From Candidatus Saccharibacteria bacterium RIFCSPHIGHO2_12_FULL_44_22 (GTDB taxonomy: Bacteria; Patescibacteriota; Saccharimonadia; Saccharimonadales; Saccharimonadaceae), in assembly GCA_001790515.1 (NCBI GenBank), contig MGCS01000013.1, forward strand, positions 62,001 to 126,000: DNA of 64,000 nt. Reading direction: 5' to 3'. Position 1 is the first letter of the stretch, and every line of letters starts with the position of its first letter. This document shows positions 31,094 to 62,860 of this stretch, in pieces. The position numbers and the translations under genes are program-made. The notes beneath the pieces are model-generated. The model saw only the letters and a program-made list of their open reading frames with translations, was not told the origin of the DNA and made no database searches.

Positions 31094-31126
31094 AAAACAC
31101 TCTAAGTATTTAGGGTGTTTTTGTTT
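31094..31126 (+). terminator. Terminator after rplS
   Basis: AAAACACTCTAA-gta-TTTAGGGTGTTTT with a T-rich tail. The tail abuts the -10 box of the next gene. Confidence 0.8.
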
Positions 31127-31132
31127 TACAAT
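31127..31132 (+). promoter_or_regulatory. -10 box of the rnhB-yraN fusion gene
   Basis: TACAAT, 6 nt before ATG 31139. It supports that start over an upstream in-frame ATG at 31115, which lies before the -10. Confidence 0.6.
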
Positions 31133-31138
31133 ATATCT

Positions 31139-32107
31139 ATGATATTAGGGATTGATGAAGTCGGGCGCGGTCCATGGGCGGGGCCACTGGTTATTGGTGC
31201 CGTTGTACTAGGTGGTGCGCAGATAGAAGGGCTTACCGACAGCAAAAAACTATCTAAGAAACGTCGTGAGCAGCTAAACATACTAATACGTGATCAGGCT
31301 GCAGGATATGGACTAGGGTGGGTTAGCGCTGCTGAGATAGATCAGATAGGGTTGTCGGAGTCGTTGCGGCTAGCGACGCGTCGGGCAGTTGAGCAAATAA
31401 AGGTATCCTATCATGAAATTATTATTGATGGAACGATCAATTTCTTGGACGGCACAAGTAAAGGTCAATACGTGACCACAATGAAAAAGGCTGACCTGCT
31501 AGTGCCAAGTGCATCGGCGGCGTCGATTATCGCCAAGGTCGCAAGAGATTCTTACATGGCCGAACAAGATGATGCATACCCTGGCTACAAGTTCTCATCA
31601 CACGTCGGATATGGAACTGCGGTACACAGGGCGGCAATAGACAAGCTTGGCGTAACGCCGCTTCACAGACTGTCCTTCGCTCCGTTAGCCAAATATAAAG
31701 CTCCGGTATCCATCGACAGGTCGACTAACCTAGCGGATAAGGCTACCGAGACTGTATCGACTGAAACAACGAAGAAGATAGGTGATCGAGCAGAAGATGA
31801 AGCGGCGAACTATCTTGTGCGTCACGGCCATGAGATTTTAGAACGCAACTGGAAGACGAAATACTGCGAGATCGATATCGTATCGCTAAAATCTGGAACG
31901 CTCTATTTCACTGAAGTAAAATACCGTAAAAGTGCAGATCAAGGCGGCGGTATTGCGGCGATTACGAAGAAGAAGTTGAGCCAGATGAAGTTTGCTGCGA
32001 ATTATTTTGTACAAGCACAGCAAATAACAGAACCCGATTTGCTGCTGGCGGTGATATCTATGACGGGAAATCCGCCTGATGTTGAAGAGTTCATAGAACT
32101 AAAGTAA
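31139..32107 (+). CDS. rnhB: Ribonuclease HII fused to a YraN/UPF0102 endonuclease-like domain
   Basis: 322 residues. Residues 1-190 are RNase HII, which removes ribonucleotides from DNA: Asp6-Glu7 (GIDEVGRG), Asp98 (IIIDGT), Asp137 (KVARDSY) and the C-terminal HRLSFAP. After a linker (about 190-212) comes a YraN-type domain with restriction-endonuclease-like residues: Glu244-x-Asp246 (KYCEIDIVSL) and Glu259-x-Lys261 (FTEVKYRKS). In many bacteria yraN is a separate gene next to rnhB; here the two are one ORF. Start chosen from the -10 box 6 nt upstream and the standard RNase HII N-terminus. Confidence 0.93.
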   Translation: MILGIDEVGRGPWAGPLVIGAVVLGGAQIEGLTDSKKLSKKRREQLNILIRDQAAGYGLGWVSAAEIDQIGLSESLRLATRRAVEQIKVSYHEIIIDGTINFLDGTSKGQYVTTMKKADLLVPSASAASIIAKVARDSYMAEQDDAYPGYKFSSHVGYGTAVHRAAIDKLGVTPLHRLSFAPLAKYKAPVSIDRSTNLADKATETVSTETTKKIGDRAEDEAANYLVRHGHEILERNWKTKYCEIDIVSLKSGTLYFTEVKYRKSADQGGGIAAITKKKLSQMKFAANYFVQAQQITEPDLLLAVISMTGNPPDVEEFIELK

Positions 32108-33960: not shown

Positions 33961-36477
33961 CTAAAGCTCTAGCAAAGCCTTCTGCACCGCATCCTTATCT
34001 CGTTCGATCAACTCAACTCGTCCCTCGATCTCTTTGATGCCAACCGTAATAGCTCGTGTCAGCGCGGGGATTTCGAGCATTGGATCGAAGAACTCATGAT
34101 ACTCTTCTAGTTGCTTACGTGTCACAAGTGCGCTAGCGCTATAGCGTGGATAATCATCGTATGATTTGTCGCCGCCGAATGTCTGAATGATCCAGTCCCA
34201 GTTGCCACGGATCCATTGCCATGCTGCTTTGCGGCTTTCGCGACCGCGAATTAGGTAGACAAACCAGCGCGCCGCGTCTTGAGGACGAACGGTTTGCGGA
34301 TCTTTGATTGCATTAAGGAGCTCGGTAATTTTTTCAGGCACGCGTGTGCTTGTAATACCGACACAAATATCTTGTCGTAATTCACCAGATTGTGACTGTC
34401 GATAGGCTGTTAGCAGCTCATCAACGACCGTTCCGTCACCATAACGCGCAACAGAACTAATGATCAGCGGCCGTAGCTCTGGATCCAGTTCTTCAAGTGG
34501 TACGGTCGTATAATATTCGAGTGCTTTGGCAATCGCATCTTCATCTTGTGCGTACAGTTTCATGCTGATCATCGTACTGCGAAGCTTTGTATCTTCTTCG
34601 CTTTCGCCTTCGATCGGTTCCCAGCCAAGTCGCTGATATTGCTCATCAGCTAAACGTCCCGACAATGTGCGGAGTTTATCTTCGGCTTCTTTGTTGTCTT
34701 CGACAAACTTTCGCAGTTCACCTGCAGCCATAGCAACGATGTTCCAGACCGGTTCGCTCGTTTCGTTTCGATAGGCGCTAATCAGTGGTAGCAGCATGTT
34801 GCTTGTCATGACGCCACCACGTGCGAGTAGTGTTGCTTCGTCGAGTAGCTGGACGCGATCGACAGGCGATAGCTGTCCGTTGACAAGTTGTGCAATGATG
34901 TCTTTTAGGAGATCTGCGTCGTAATGAGTGATGAAATGGGCGGTGTCACCAGCGTTTAATCGGACTGATGATTCAGAAGTGTAGGTAATGGACGGCTCTG
35001 TAAGTAATTCTGGGGCAGTGGCATCACTGGCGTTTAAAGGGATCGGCCAAACTTTATTGGACGGTTCGTGCGGACCGACAAAGAACTGCTCTTGCGACAA
35101 GGTAACCTGGTCGTCTTGTTTTTCGGCTCGCACGACAGGATAGCCGGATTGTGAAATCCAGGTGTTCATAATACCAGCAACGTCTTTGCCACTAGCTGCG
35201 CCTAGTTCTGTCCACAAATCGTCGCCGACGGTGTTTTTGTAGGCATGTTTTTGGAAATATGATTTCAGGCCTGTTTGGAATGCATCGTTTCCGATGAATG
35301 TCTGGATCATGCGCAGCAAACGTGCACCCTTTGCATAAACAATCGCACCATCAAATAGCGTACTGATCTCGTCTGGATGGTTCACGTCTACTTGAACAGC
35401 CTGGACACCATCAAGCGCGTCACGTCGCAGCGCCATAATACTTTCGTTCGTCGCAAAATCAAGCCAGATGTTCCATTCTGGATGAAGCGCATCGATAGCC
35501 AGGTATTCCATCAGTGTCGCAAAACTTTCGTTCAGCCATAGGTCATTCCACCACTGCATCGTAACGAGGTTGCCGAACCACTGATGCGCGAGTTCGTGAG
35601 CAATGACGGTCGCGATATATTGCCGACTACTGATGCTGGTGGTCGCAGGATCAGCCAGTAGCGCGATCTCGCGGTAGGTAATCAGCCCCCAGTTTTCCAT
35701 TGCGCCACTGCTAAAATCTGGCAGCGCAACATGATCGGACTTTGGTAACGGGTAAGGTGTGCCAAAATAGTCATTGTAGAATTCGATCGATCGCACGGCA
35801 ATATCGAGTGCAAAATCAAGGCTAGCTGCGGGCTGTGCAGGTGTTGCCCAGACATTCACTTCGACACCGTCTTTGGTTTTGGCGGTTTTGCTTTGCAATT
35901 CACCGACGACAAACGCCAGTAGGTAGGTACTCATACGTGGTGTTGTGTCGAATTTTGTAATAAGGTTGCGGCCGTCAGCGTCCTGGTAGTTGATTGGCAT
36001 GTTGCCTAGTACTGACACTGCATCTGGTGTGGTAAGCGTAACGTCAAAAGTGGCTTTTGCGGCGGGTTCGTCGATACATGGAAATACCTCGCGTGCATGG
36101 TGACTTTCGAACTGGGTCGCAATCAGTTCTTTGCGCGTACCGGCATGCTCGTAATAGCAAGGGTACATACCGTGCATAGCGTCGGTGATTTTACCGTTAA
36201 AGCTGACCACGGCGATGTGATCGCCTGGTTGCAAACCTTCTTTAGTGATAGTCATTTCATCGTTTTCGCCAGTTGTGAAGTTTGCTGCTTGTCCATCGAC
36301 GACGACAGAATCAATTGATAGGTCTTTGGCATGAAGTGAGATACCTGATGCGATGTCGGTCATAGTGCCGTGAATCGTCACGATGCCATGAAATGACCGA
36401 TCTTGCTGATTGATATCAAGGGATAGTTCGTAATGGTTTGGAACAAATTGGTCAATTAATCGTGAAACTGTATGCAT
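33961..36477 (-). CDS. pepN: M1-family zinc aminopeptidase
   Basis: 838 residues from ATG 36477. Removes N-terminal amino acids from peptides. GAMEN exopeptidase motif at 259-263 (GAMENWGL), zinc ligands His294 and His298 (HELAHQW) with catalytic Glu295, and Glu317 (NLWLNESFAT) as third ligand. The C-terminal half is the ERAP1/PepN-like helical domain. No signal peptide, so cytoplasmic, fitting peptide scavenging. A 46-residue upstream extension is open but lies across the -10 box (TATAAT, 36485-36490 minus) which ends 7 nt before ATG 36477, so I exclude it. Confidence 0.95.
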   Translation of the reverse strand: MHTVSRLIDQFVPNHYELSLDINQQDRSFHGIVTIHGTMTDIASGISLHAKDLSIDSVVVDGQAANFTTGENDEMTITKEGLQPGDHIAVVSFNGKITDAMHGMYPCYYEHAGTRKELIATQFESHHAREVFPCIDEPAAKATFDVTLTTPDAVSVLGNMPINYQDADGRNLITKFDTTPRMSTYLLAFVVGELQSKTAKTKDGVEVNVWATPAQPAASLDFALDIAVRSIEFYNDYFGTPYPLPKSDHVALPDFSSGAMENWGLITYREIALLADPATTSISSRQYIATVIAHELAHQWFGNLVTMQWWNDLWLNESFATLMEYLAIDALHPEWNIWLDFATNESIMALRRDALDGVQAVQVDVNHPDEISTLFDGAIVYAKGARLLRMIQTFIGNDAFQTGLKSYFQKHAYKNTVGDDLWTELGAASGKDVAGIMNTWISQSGYPVVRAEKQDDQVTLSQEQFFVGPHEPSNKVWPIPLNASDATAPELLTEPSITYTSESSVRLNAGDTAHFITHYDADLLKDIIAQLVNGQLSPVDRVQLLDEATLLARGGVMTSNMLLPLISAYRNETSEPVWNIVAMAAGELRKFVEDNKEAEDKLRTLSGRLADEQYQRLGWEPIEGESEEDTKLRSTMISMKLYAQDEDAIAKALEYYTTVPLEELDPELRPLIISSVARYGDGTVVDELLTAYRQSQSGELRQDICVGITSTRVPEKITELLNAIKDPQTVRPQDAARWFVYLIRGRESRKAAWQWIRGNWDWIIQTFGGDKSYDDYPRYSASALVTRKQLEEYHEFFDPMLEIPALTRAITVGIKEIEGRVELIERDKDAVQKALLEL

Positions 36478-36496
36478 ATATACTATTATACAGGAT
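36478..36496. promoter_or_regulatory. 19-bp divergent promoter with a shared -10
   Basis: The start codons of pepN (minus, 36477) and the nuclease gene (plus, 36497) are 19 bp apart. The stretch TATTATA (36484-36490) reads TATAAT on the minus strand (36490-36485) and TATTAT on the plus strand (36484-36489). Each hexamer ends 7 nt from its start codon. Confidence 0.65.
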
Positions 36497-37195
36497 ATGG
36501 GTAACGCTTTTCGGGTTCGTCGGGTAATTGTTGGGTTAGCATCGCTTATATGTCTGGCAACTATTGTCACGCAGTCGCCTGATTCGTGGCAGCCGACTCT
36601 CCCTACTACCTCCACATCGTCAGAGGTGGCAACGGGTCAGGCGTCTGAAGAACTAGCGCAGCTACCAACCAAAGGTCGTGCACCAAAAACTGGCTATACA
36701 AGGGCGCAATTTGGCGATGGCTGGGCGATGAAGCTGGGGTGCGACATGCGAAACATCATCTTGAACCGTGACATGCGGGATGTTGTAATGGGCGATGGCT
36801 GTAAAGTTGTGTCTGGCCTATTCAGTGATCCGTATACGGGCAGTACTATTCAATTTACACGAGGAGCCAGTACGAGTGCTGATGTGCAGATTGATCATGT
36901 CGTGGCGCTCAGTAACGCATGGCAGACGGGTGCGCAGCAGCTAACTCCACAGCAGCGCATAGAACTTGCCAATGACCCGTTAAATCTATTAGCATCAGAC
37001 GGCAAAGCAAATCAAGAAAAATCAGATGGCGATGCGGCGACATGGCTGCCATCGAACAAAGCGTTTCGCTGTCAATATGTTGCGCGGCAAATCGCCGTCA
37101 AACGAAAGTATACGTTATGGGTAACAACGGCGGAGCGTGATGTGATGAATGCGGTTTTGGCGAAGTGTTCAGGGCAATTGTTACCAAAAGAATGA
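36497..37195 (+). CDS. Secreted HNH-type nuclease (DUF1524-like)
   Basis: 232 residues. An N-terminal signal-anchor/signal peptide (about 7-27) and a Ser/Thr linker precede the catalytic domain. Asp133-His134 (QIDHVVALSNAW), then NDPLNLL (Asn163) and ANQEKSDGDAATWLP (Asn172, Lys175) form the DUF1524/HNH signature found in GmrSD-like C-terminal domains and in secreted nucleases. Cysteines at 82, 102, 192 and 225 could form disulphides outside the cell. Likely digests external DNA for nucleotide scavenging. Shares a promoter region with pepN. Confidence 0.82.
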   Translation: MGNAFRVRRVIVGLASLICLATIVTQSPDSWQPTLPTTSTSSEVATGQASEELAQLPTKGRAPKTGYTRAQFGDGWAMKLGCDMRNIILNRDMRDVVMGDGCKVVSGLFSDPYTGSTIQFTRGASTSADVQIDHVVALSNAWQTGAQQLTPQQRIELANDPLNLLASDGKANQEKSDGDAATWLPSNKAFRCQYVARQIAVKRKYTLWVTTAERDVMNAVLAKCSGQLLPKE

Positions 37196-39608: not shown

Positions 39609-40046
39609 TCAGTATTGTCCATTGATGCGCCTGTTGACAGTGTTAATCTTGTTTCGATGTCGACGAACTTCTGCAGATTCTTTAACTCGATGAAATAATG
39701 ATCGCTTTGGTTTTTGTGCAGCCATACGATCAAGTTTTTGAATGTATACGACTTCTTCGGGGGTAAACCCGTCGAATAGGCTATCATCTGTCGAAGTTGA
39801 ATATGCGGCATTCGATGTCGCATTGACTGCCGCTGCTGTAGAATGCTGTACAGTGTCATGCTCAACTGAGGCGTCTGCACGCTTCATCAGTTCATCGCGA
39901 GCTTCTTTGATACGTGCGAATGCTTCGGCTGCTTCTGGTGAATCGCTGTGATCTGGGTGTGTTTCTAAGGCAGCTTTGCGAAAAGCTTGCTGAATCTCTT
40001 CTTTTGGCGCGTTCGCTGACACGCCAAGAATCTGATTATGGTTCAT
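39609..40046 (-). CDS. J-domain protein
   Basis: 145 residues. An N-terminal J domain (1-57) carries the HPD tripeptide at 30-32 that stimulates Hsp70 ATPase. The remainder has a Ser/Thr-rich linker and a basic tail (KPKRSLFHRVKESAEVRRHRNK), with no Gly/Phe or zinc-finger region, so it is a DnaJ-like co-chaperone of specialised type. The -10 TATAAT lies 6 nt upstream, so leaderless. Confidence 0.85.
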   Translation of the reverse strand: MNHNQILGVSANAPKEEIQQAFRKAALETHPDHSDSPEAAEAFARIKEARDELMKRADASVEHDTVQHSTAAAVNATSNAAYSTSTDDSLFDGFTPEEVVYIQKLDRMAAQKPKRSLFHRVKESAEVRRHRNKINTVNRRINGQY

Positions 40047-40052
40047 ACTACT

Positions 40053-40058
40053 ATTATA
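40053..40058 (-). promoter_or_regulatory. -10 box of the J-domain gene
   Basis: Minus-strand TATAAT, 6 nt from the ATG. Confidence 0.65.
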
Positions 40059-40116
40059 TACTAAAATGCTTATGATTGCAATATTAACGGCGGACGTTGT
40101 CGTTGATTAAATAGCG

Positions 40117-61404: not shown

Positions 61405-62196
61405 TTATCCGACTATATATAACGCGGCCATCAGTAACACGAATGGAACAGCGAGTGAAACGTATGAAAGTATGTGTGCTCGTGGCATCTGTAATTTCTT
61501 TTTAGCAATGCCAGTGTATGTCCCATATAACGTTGTCAAACTGCCAGTGGCGGATAGATTACCGCCGTACCCTAGTGTCAGTAGGTAAGGAATGTACTGC
61601 GATGCAAAGATTGTCAGCAAGCCTTTTTTAGTTAACCGCGTACTTTCTTCTAGCGCGGCGTTACCACGATATTTCTTGTTTTCAAAAAACAGCAGTCCGG
61701 CAAAAGAATAACGATAATATGCGACGACACCAGGAATGACGAATAGCACAGACCACAACGTGATTTTGATGTACATCCATAGCATCAAAATAGTGTATGA
61801 TCCGAATTGTCCCAGGGTTGCATTAAACGCTTCGCTGACGGTGACAGATTTTCCTTTTGATAACATGACGGCTGTGTATGACTGGATCCCATGAATCATC
61901 ACCATGATGACGAATAGTGACAATGATATGATTAATACCATTCCGGCGTAAAGGGCGATCGTACTGGCGGGTGTGCTGATGAGTGATTGAATCGCTTGTT
62001 CGACTTGCGCTGGTTCTTTAAATTTTGCTTGCTGCGCCGTAATAAAGTTATTTCCTGTGATAACACAGACACTCGCGATGACAAGAACGACCGCTACGGT
62101 AATCGCCCTACTGACAACCAGAGTGACACCTTGCCACATTGCAACGAAAGGATTGATGCTGATCGGCTGTTCAATAGGTATTTTTTCTTTGCTCAT
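61405..62196 (-). CDS. Multi-pass membrane protein, DUF975-like
   Basis: 263 residues with about 6 TM helices. LWSVLFVIPGVVAYYRYSFAGLLFFENKKYRGNAALEES matches the DUF975/YciC-like pattern of polytopic proteins with unknown function. Extended -10 (TGC-TACACT, minus, 62207-62215) lies 10 nt before the ATG. Confidence 0.75.
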   Translation of the reverse strand: MSKEKIPIEQPISINPFVAMWQGVTLVVSRAITVAVVLVIASVCVITGNNFITAQQAKFKEPAQVEQAIQSLISTPASTIALYAGMVLIISLSLFVIMVMIHGIQSYTAVMLSKGKSVTVSEAFNATLGQFGSYTILMLWMYIKITLWSVLFVIPGVVAYYRYSFAGLLFFENKKYRGNAALEESTRLTKKGLLTIFASQYIPYLLTLGYGGNLSATGSLTTLYGTYTGIAKKKLQMPRAHILSYVSLAVPFVLLMAALYIVG

Positions 62197-62206
62197 ATCT
62201 GTTACG

Positions 62207-62215
62207 AGTGTAGCA
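62207..62215 (-). promoter_or_regulatory. Extended -10 of the DUF975-like gene
   Basis: Minus-strand TGC-TACACT, 10 nt before the ATG. Confidence 0.55.
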
Positions 62216-62226
62216 CATTAGCCGAC

Positions 62227-62235
62227 TGCTATACT
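62227..62235 (+). promoter_or_regulatory. Extended -10 of the second SpoU methylase
   Basis: TGC-TATACT, 10 nt before ATG 62246. Divergent from the DUF975-like promoter. Confidence 0.55.
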
Positions 62236-62245
62236 GGTATAAGTT

Positions 62246-62860
62246 ATGAACGAATCGGAACGAATTATCGGTGTTGGACCCCATCCTCACCCATGGCCAA
62301 CTGATGATCGGTTCGATCGCGAACTATTAGCCGTTGGTGATACGCGAAATGTCGTAGATAAATACCGTTATTGGTCGGTTGAGGCAATAAAAGCAGATAT
62401 GGCAAGTCATGCAATTCCTCTGCATATTGCTATCGAAAACTGGCAACACGACAGTAATATCGGCACTATTGTGCGAACTGCAAATGCATTGAATGTTGAA
62501 TGCGTTCATGTTATCGGGAAGCGCCACTGGAATCGACGAGGTGCAATGGTGACAGATCGATATTTGAACATTGAACATCATGCGTCGGTTGCGGATTTTG
62601 TGACGGCGGTGGGTCAACGAAAGATTATAGCAATCGACAATGTACCAGGTGCGAACATACTTTCGTCGTATGAATTTCCCAAAAACGCAGTACTGGTGTT
62701 TGGTGGCGAAGGGCCAGGCCTTAGTGACGAACTGTTGAGCGTGAGTGCGACAAGTGTACAGATTGAACAAGACGGGAGCACGCGGTCGATTAATGTTGGT
62801 GTCGCGGCGGGTATCGTCATGTATCAATGGGTGCGGCAACATAAACTGTTGTTAAAATAA
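62246..62860 (+). CDS. SpoU/TrmH-family RNA methyltransferase (2)
   Basis: 204 residues. SPOUT motifs: NWQHDSNIGTIVRTANAL (motif 1), VLVFGGEGPGLSDELL (motif 2) and IEQDGSTRSINVGVAAGIVMYQW (motif 3). A short N-terminal region (1-55) may bind the RNA. Target RNA unknown. Distinct from the methylase at 28116. Confidence 0.9.
   Translation: MNESERIIGVGPHPHPWPTDDRFDRELLAVGDTRNVVDKYRYWSVEAIKADMASHAIPLHIAIENWQHDSNIGTIVRTANALNVECVHVIGKRHWNRRGAMVTDRYLNIEHHASVADFVTAVGQRKIIAIDNVPGANILSSYEFPKNAVLVFGGEGPGLSDELLSVSATSVQIEQDGSTRSINVGVAAGIVMYQWVRQHKLLLK

Follow-up and report, generated by a model that had tools for sequence, protein, structure and literature searches.

The divergent pepN and nuclease genes

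Two genes diverge from a 19-bp gap in the window (the whole stretch of DNA analyzed, 64,000 nucleotides). The minus strand gene pepN (33961-36477) encodes an M1 family aminopeptidase of 838 amino acids with matches to Pfam PF01433, PF17900 and PF11838; in the domain search, its product also matched TIGR02412, with a score under the family cut-off. The plus strand gene (36497-37195) encodes a predicted secreted nuclease of 232 amino acids, recognized by its GmrSD_C (DUF1524) domain (Pfam PF07510) and by conservation in 73 orthologues. Among these, residues D133-H134, N172 and K175 are invariant, there are conserved cysteines, and the N-terminus is hydrophobic in 73/73 sequences. Such a pattern would suit a His-Me finger nuclease that is secreted, with secretion and activity presumed, the latter from one Pfam domain. 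Sequence comparison did not find a solved structure resembling the nuclease. The scavenging link between the two enzymes that the earlier note drew is plausible. Another open reading frame of the window (31115-32107), with its translation read by eye, apparently encodes a ribonuclease HII joined to a nuclease domain of the YraN/UPF0102 type.

The start codons were read from the sequence and the open reading frames at 36477-36475 (minus strand) for pepN and at 36497-36499 (plus strand) for the nuclease, in agreement with the 19-bp distance given earlier. Both assignments are supported by comparison with relatives and by the local reading frame: homologues of pepN open with ATG at the equivalent residue, R8 and R9 of the nuclease are kept in 71/73 and 68/73 orthologues, and there is no in-frame start codon 5' of the nuclease ATG. 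The gap between the start codons (36478-36496, ATATACTATTATACAGGAT) thus defined holds the putative shared promoter.

-10 elements in the gap

The core of the gap, TATTATA (36484-36490), can be read on both strands. It provides TATAAT for pepN (36485-36490, minus strand) and TATTAT for the nuclease (36484-36489, plus strand), each 7 nt 5' of its own ATG, exactly as had been noted. Against the genome's own model of leaderless -10 elements, the two hexamers score 8.6 and 5.8 bits, respectively, and this score in both directions was reached by 0.3% of shuffles of the 19 bases. The hexamers overlap by 5 bases, so that -7 and -11 coincide reciprocally (by arithmetic, the 18-bp type); the 4-base overlap of most shared orthologues lacks this coincidence. 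An extended -10 TG at -15/-14, which most other leaderless promoters of this genome carry, is absent, as TATAAT is preceded by CTG (-14 is T) and TATTAT by TAC.

Other claims of the earlier note had to be revised. TATTATA is not the sole A+T-rich hexamer, because TATACT (5/6 matches) is also present at 36479-36484 on the plus strand, 12 nt 5' of the nuclease ATG; with 4.8 bits, it is an alternative nuclease -10 that would leave a leader of ~6 nt. The -35 regions postulated inside the opposite genes are unneeded, since the leaderless promoters of this genome depend on an extended -10, with almost no -35. On one side only, a weak -35-like GTGAAA was found within pepN (36462-36467, plus strand; 9/12 with TATTAT), which is about what chance would give (1 found, 0.9 expected).

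In the nearest relative (L002), the gap contains ATTACTAGTATACTAGACCT, where the core is perfectly palindromic and reaches 9.5 bits in either direction. The window copy is an imperfect member of the class, with a weak nuclease side (TATTAT) and a rival TATACT. Comparison with L002 by eye suggests that the shared core is older and that the nuclease TATACT has since dropped its final T in the window; the window nuclease may now use either TATTAT (spacer 7) or TATACT (spacer 12).

Leaderless promoters are routine in Saccharibacteria

As a background, we used 632 kb of the same genome (about half of its 1.23 Mb, in 16 contigs), with genes defined by simple ORF calls. The -10 model was fitted to upstream regions of this genome, and the window nuclease is among its 553 ATG genes. 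In the 632 kb, -10-like hexamers cluster at spacers of 6-9 nt, with 130 cases having at most one mismatch to TATAAT, compared to ~6-7 per position elsewhere. The mixture weight of the leaderless -10 was 24.5% of the 553 ATG genes, and scores above 4 bits were obtained for 24.8% of ATG genes versus 4.8% at control positions in the same genome. The signal takes the form TGnTATAMT (T-G-G/C-TATAA/CT) at spacers 6-9 with little or no strong -35, and no clear signal for -35 elements at leaderless promoters was found in this genome's sample. In the other Saccharibacteria sampled, 7 of 8 genomes had 20-25% against a background of 5-8%, and genome G080 had 9.0% against 3.8%. As about a quarter of ATG genes carry an extended -10 at 6-9 nt, compared to 5% in the background, leaderless promoters appear to be routine. 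Shine-Dalgarno-like sequences are likewise common in this genome, and leaderless and Shine-Dalgarno systems therefore seem to coexist. Within the window, the DnaJ-domain gene at 39609-40046 (minus strand) has TATATAATAGTAGT immediately 5' of its ATG (40047-40060), nearly identical to the pepN promoter.

Leaderless promoters being ordinary in this genome, the window site can be described as two of them that coincide. Part of the reverse reading is inherent in TATAAT itself, which counts against a shared promoter: among the single leaderless promoters of this genome, 36% also show an antisense -10 of at least 3 bits that overlaps the sense one. Strong shared -10 elements as a general genome feature were considered and rejected, as there was no peak among 223 divergent gene pairs from nine genomes. 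In the same set, no gap measures 7-17 bp, and gaps of 18-30 bp do occur. Only about 4 pairs with two strong overlapping -10 elements occur in 1.43 Mb, pepN/nuclease included. The pepN/nuclease pair is therefore special and not typical of divergent genes.

A second divergent pair of this kind lies in the same genome at L196:13744-13763 (G000 C2:133744-133763). Its 20-bp gap contains the core AGTATACT with scores of 8.4 and 9.5 bits, and it separates two genes, one for a 263-aa protein not assigned to a family and the other for a 115-aa protein that we take to resemble MmcQ/YjbR. In the window itself, a 49-bp gap (62197-62245) between genes at 61405-62196 (minus strand) and 62246-62860 (plus strand) contains outward-facing TACACT and TATACT and represents a separate-promoter version of the pepN/nuclease design.

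Conservation of the divergent pair

Orthologous loci were collected from public genomes as distinct divergent pepN/nuclease pairs with a gap below 400 bp; close homologues were nearly all from Saccharibacteria. At least 73 loci from Saccharibacteria contain the pair. At leaderless distance, a -10 of at least 3 bits is present for pepN in 72/73 and for the nuclease in 57/73 orthologues. Overlapping and thus shared -10 elements were seen in 24 of the 73 loci; the gaps measure 18-25 bp there, and the core is usually AGTATACT or ATTATACT. Gaps of 26-60 bp were found in 34 loci, 26 of them with two separate outward-facing -10 elements; the remaining loci have longer gaps or are unclear. As to conservation of the gap in related genomes, proposed earlier as a check, short gaps with overlapping -10 elements account for 24/73 loci, and most of the others are longer and have separate ones. 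Nor is the window an extreme case, as had been thought, for this lineage: gaps of 19-23 bp form the commonest class (24/73 orthologues).

The short gaps of some orthologues hinge on the choice of start codon. The shared state of L108 is doubtful, as in L107, to which it is closely related, the start in use lies at 36 bp, and L108 was excluded from the tree test described below. Two orthologous gaps, L140 (14 bp, with abutting TATACT hexamers in both directions) and L144 (6 bp), are too short by the model for two ordinary leaderless promoters and may reflect start-codon errors.

When short gaps were shuffled, both directions reached at least 3 bits in 0.4/27 cases. Given the pepN hexamer alone, a nuclease -10 was seen in 22/24 shared gaps, compared to 6.7 expected. 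Given the whole pepN 9-mer, 22 were seen and 20.9 expected; this version of the test is uninformative, because the 9-mer already contains the nuclease hexamer. In genomes where the two genes are not neighbors, both mostly retain a leaderless -10 (17/26 scorable copies for the nuclease), so that, judging from these upstream regions, the leaderless state of either gene seems not to depend on the pairing.

Shared and separate promoters differ at position -14

In the usual shared core (AGTATACT/ATTATACT), the hexamers overlap by 4 bases and the central TATA serves both. With +1 placed seven bases after -7, arithmetic puts the predicted start sites 21 bp apart in this core and 18-20 bp apart in the window. 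Where the promoters are separate, 38/45 pepN sites and 22/32 nuclease sites carry G at -14 (60/77). Shared promoters have A at this position in 19/24 pepN and 21/23 nuclease sites (40/47), and G in 2/24 and 0/23, respectively (2/47). G is almost never found in shared sites because in the usual 4-base overlap the base at -14 pairs with the -7T of the opposite promoter; the G of an extended -10 and the opposite -10 are therefore mutually exclusive there. The difference between shared and separate sites is pronounced (Fisher p = 8e-11 for pepN and 1e-6 for the nuclease, kinship ignored). The nuclease hexamer of shared orthologues is usually strong, being TATACT in 18/23. Element position, conservation and loss of the extended -10 G upon overlap are all directly apparent from the sequences.

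The orthologue rows are not independent. Changes were also counted on a tree built from pepN and the nuclease together. The state switched between shared and separate at least 11 times. On supported branches, the pepN -14 base changed in the same direction in ~5/7 independent pairs and in the opposite direction in none (sign test p = 0.06), and the sign test for the nuclease -14 base was not significant (p ~ 0.25).

Interpretation and alternatives

We consider it probable, at roughly 70%, that the gap functions as a bidirectional leaderless promoter with the predicted start sites. Leaderless transcription in both directions from one promoter, as already suggested in the earlier note, is the reading best compatible with the genome-wide leaderless signal and the conservation across 73 loci. 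RNA polymerase with the housekeeping sigma factor would bind the near-symmetrical -10 facing either gene, and the transcript of pepN or of the nuclease would begin at, or at most one base from, the A of its own start codon. Both mRNAs would then be leaderless and translated from the 5' end. As one -10 accommodates only one polymerase, the two directions would be alternatives at each binding event, arising from the same site. Start sites, two-way promoter activity, competition and a possible gain from having the genes coupled are what we infer from this arrangement, and mutual exclusion at this locus is a possibility and not a conclusion. Only tentatively, and at somewhat less than even odds, would we generalize that in Saccharibacteria a TATA-centred bidirectional leaderless promoter of ~20 bp makes transcription of two genes exclusive per binding event, and that lineages repeatedly go back and forth between it and two separate extended -10 elements, with the -14 G of one gene exchanged for the -7 T of the other.

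Two abutting promoters could also explain the gap, with TATAAT (36490-36485) serving pepN and TATACT (36479-36484) serving the nuclease with a leader of ~6 nt. TATACT, at 4.8 bits, is nearer to the consensus hexamers of the genome than TATTAT, but its spacer of 12 falls outside the genomic peak of 6-9, and the comparison with ATTACTAGTATACTAGACCT in L002 by eye suggests that the shared core came first and that the window nuclease TATACT later lost its final T. We regard this arrangement as unlikely. Slightly less likely still, the gap could drive pepN only, with the nuclease transcribed from within pepN and the antisense match a chance product of TATAAT symmetry. The frequent antisense -10 elements at ordinary leaderless promoters (36%) and the weaker nuclease side (above 3 bits in 57/73 orthologues) would agree with such a one-way promoter; the usually strong nuclease hexamer of shared orthologues (TATACT in 18/23) and the disappearance of the pepN extended -10 G exactly in these orthologues argue against it.

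The palindrome (CTAGTATACTAG in relatives) might instead be the operator of a dimeric regulator, and its dyad symmetry is indeed perfect in some of them (L002, L003). However, it lies at leaderless -10 distance from both ATGs and matches the -10 model of the genome, and longer gaps carry two separate extended -10 elements in its place, which makes an operator very improbable.

Comparison with known systems

Bidirectional promoters have been described mainly from model bacteria and archaea. A literature search yielded no paper on leaderless genes from either Saccharibacteria or the candidate phyla radiation, and no earlier description of the combination reported here, of the 21-bp core or of the repeated switching. 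If the bidirectional leaderless promoter is real, the entire regulatory region between two genes would have shrunk to ~20 bp, and this in bacteria whose genomes are very small. The arrangement appears to have been gained and lost many times, and shared and separate orthologues amount to a natural experiment, which predicts that it depends on a single base (-14) whether a promoter is strong and one-way or works both ways. Routine leaderless promoters should also aid the choice of start codons in Saccharibacteria.

Warman, Grainger and colleagues described bidirectional promoters with a symmetrical -10, which are common between divergent genes and whose start sites lie on opposite strands at a distance of 7-25 bp (PMC10268837, PMC12825309). 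As in these promoters, one -10 region would be read on both strands in the window; unlike in them, both predicted transcripts are leaderless, and the promoter would therefore occupy the entire gap. In E. coli, a start-site spacing of 18 bp is the commonest, and 10 and 23 bp are also common (PMC12825309). The usual Saccharibacteria core, with an overlap of 4 and a predicted 21 bp, differs from the commonest E. coli spacing, and the window copy is of the 18-bp type. Polymerases cannot bind both ways simultaneously, and competition matters little at low basal activity (PMC12825309).

In Actinobacteria and Deinococcus-Thermus, a large proportion of genes is leaderless (TA-led), with a -10-like hexamer ~6-9 nt before the start codon (PMC3160421, PMC12340547), or TANNNT ~12 bp upstream (PMC3160421). 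The window genes resemble them in that each has a -10-like hexamer at spacer 7, within the genome's 6-9 peak. They differ from TA-led genes in that the Saccharibacteria signal includes the extended -10 TG and in that two genes share one site. Both two-way promoters and leaderless messages are thus known, and judging from the sequences they seem to be combined here in an unusually compact and recurring form.
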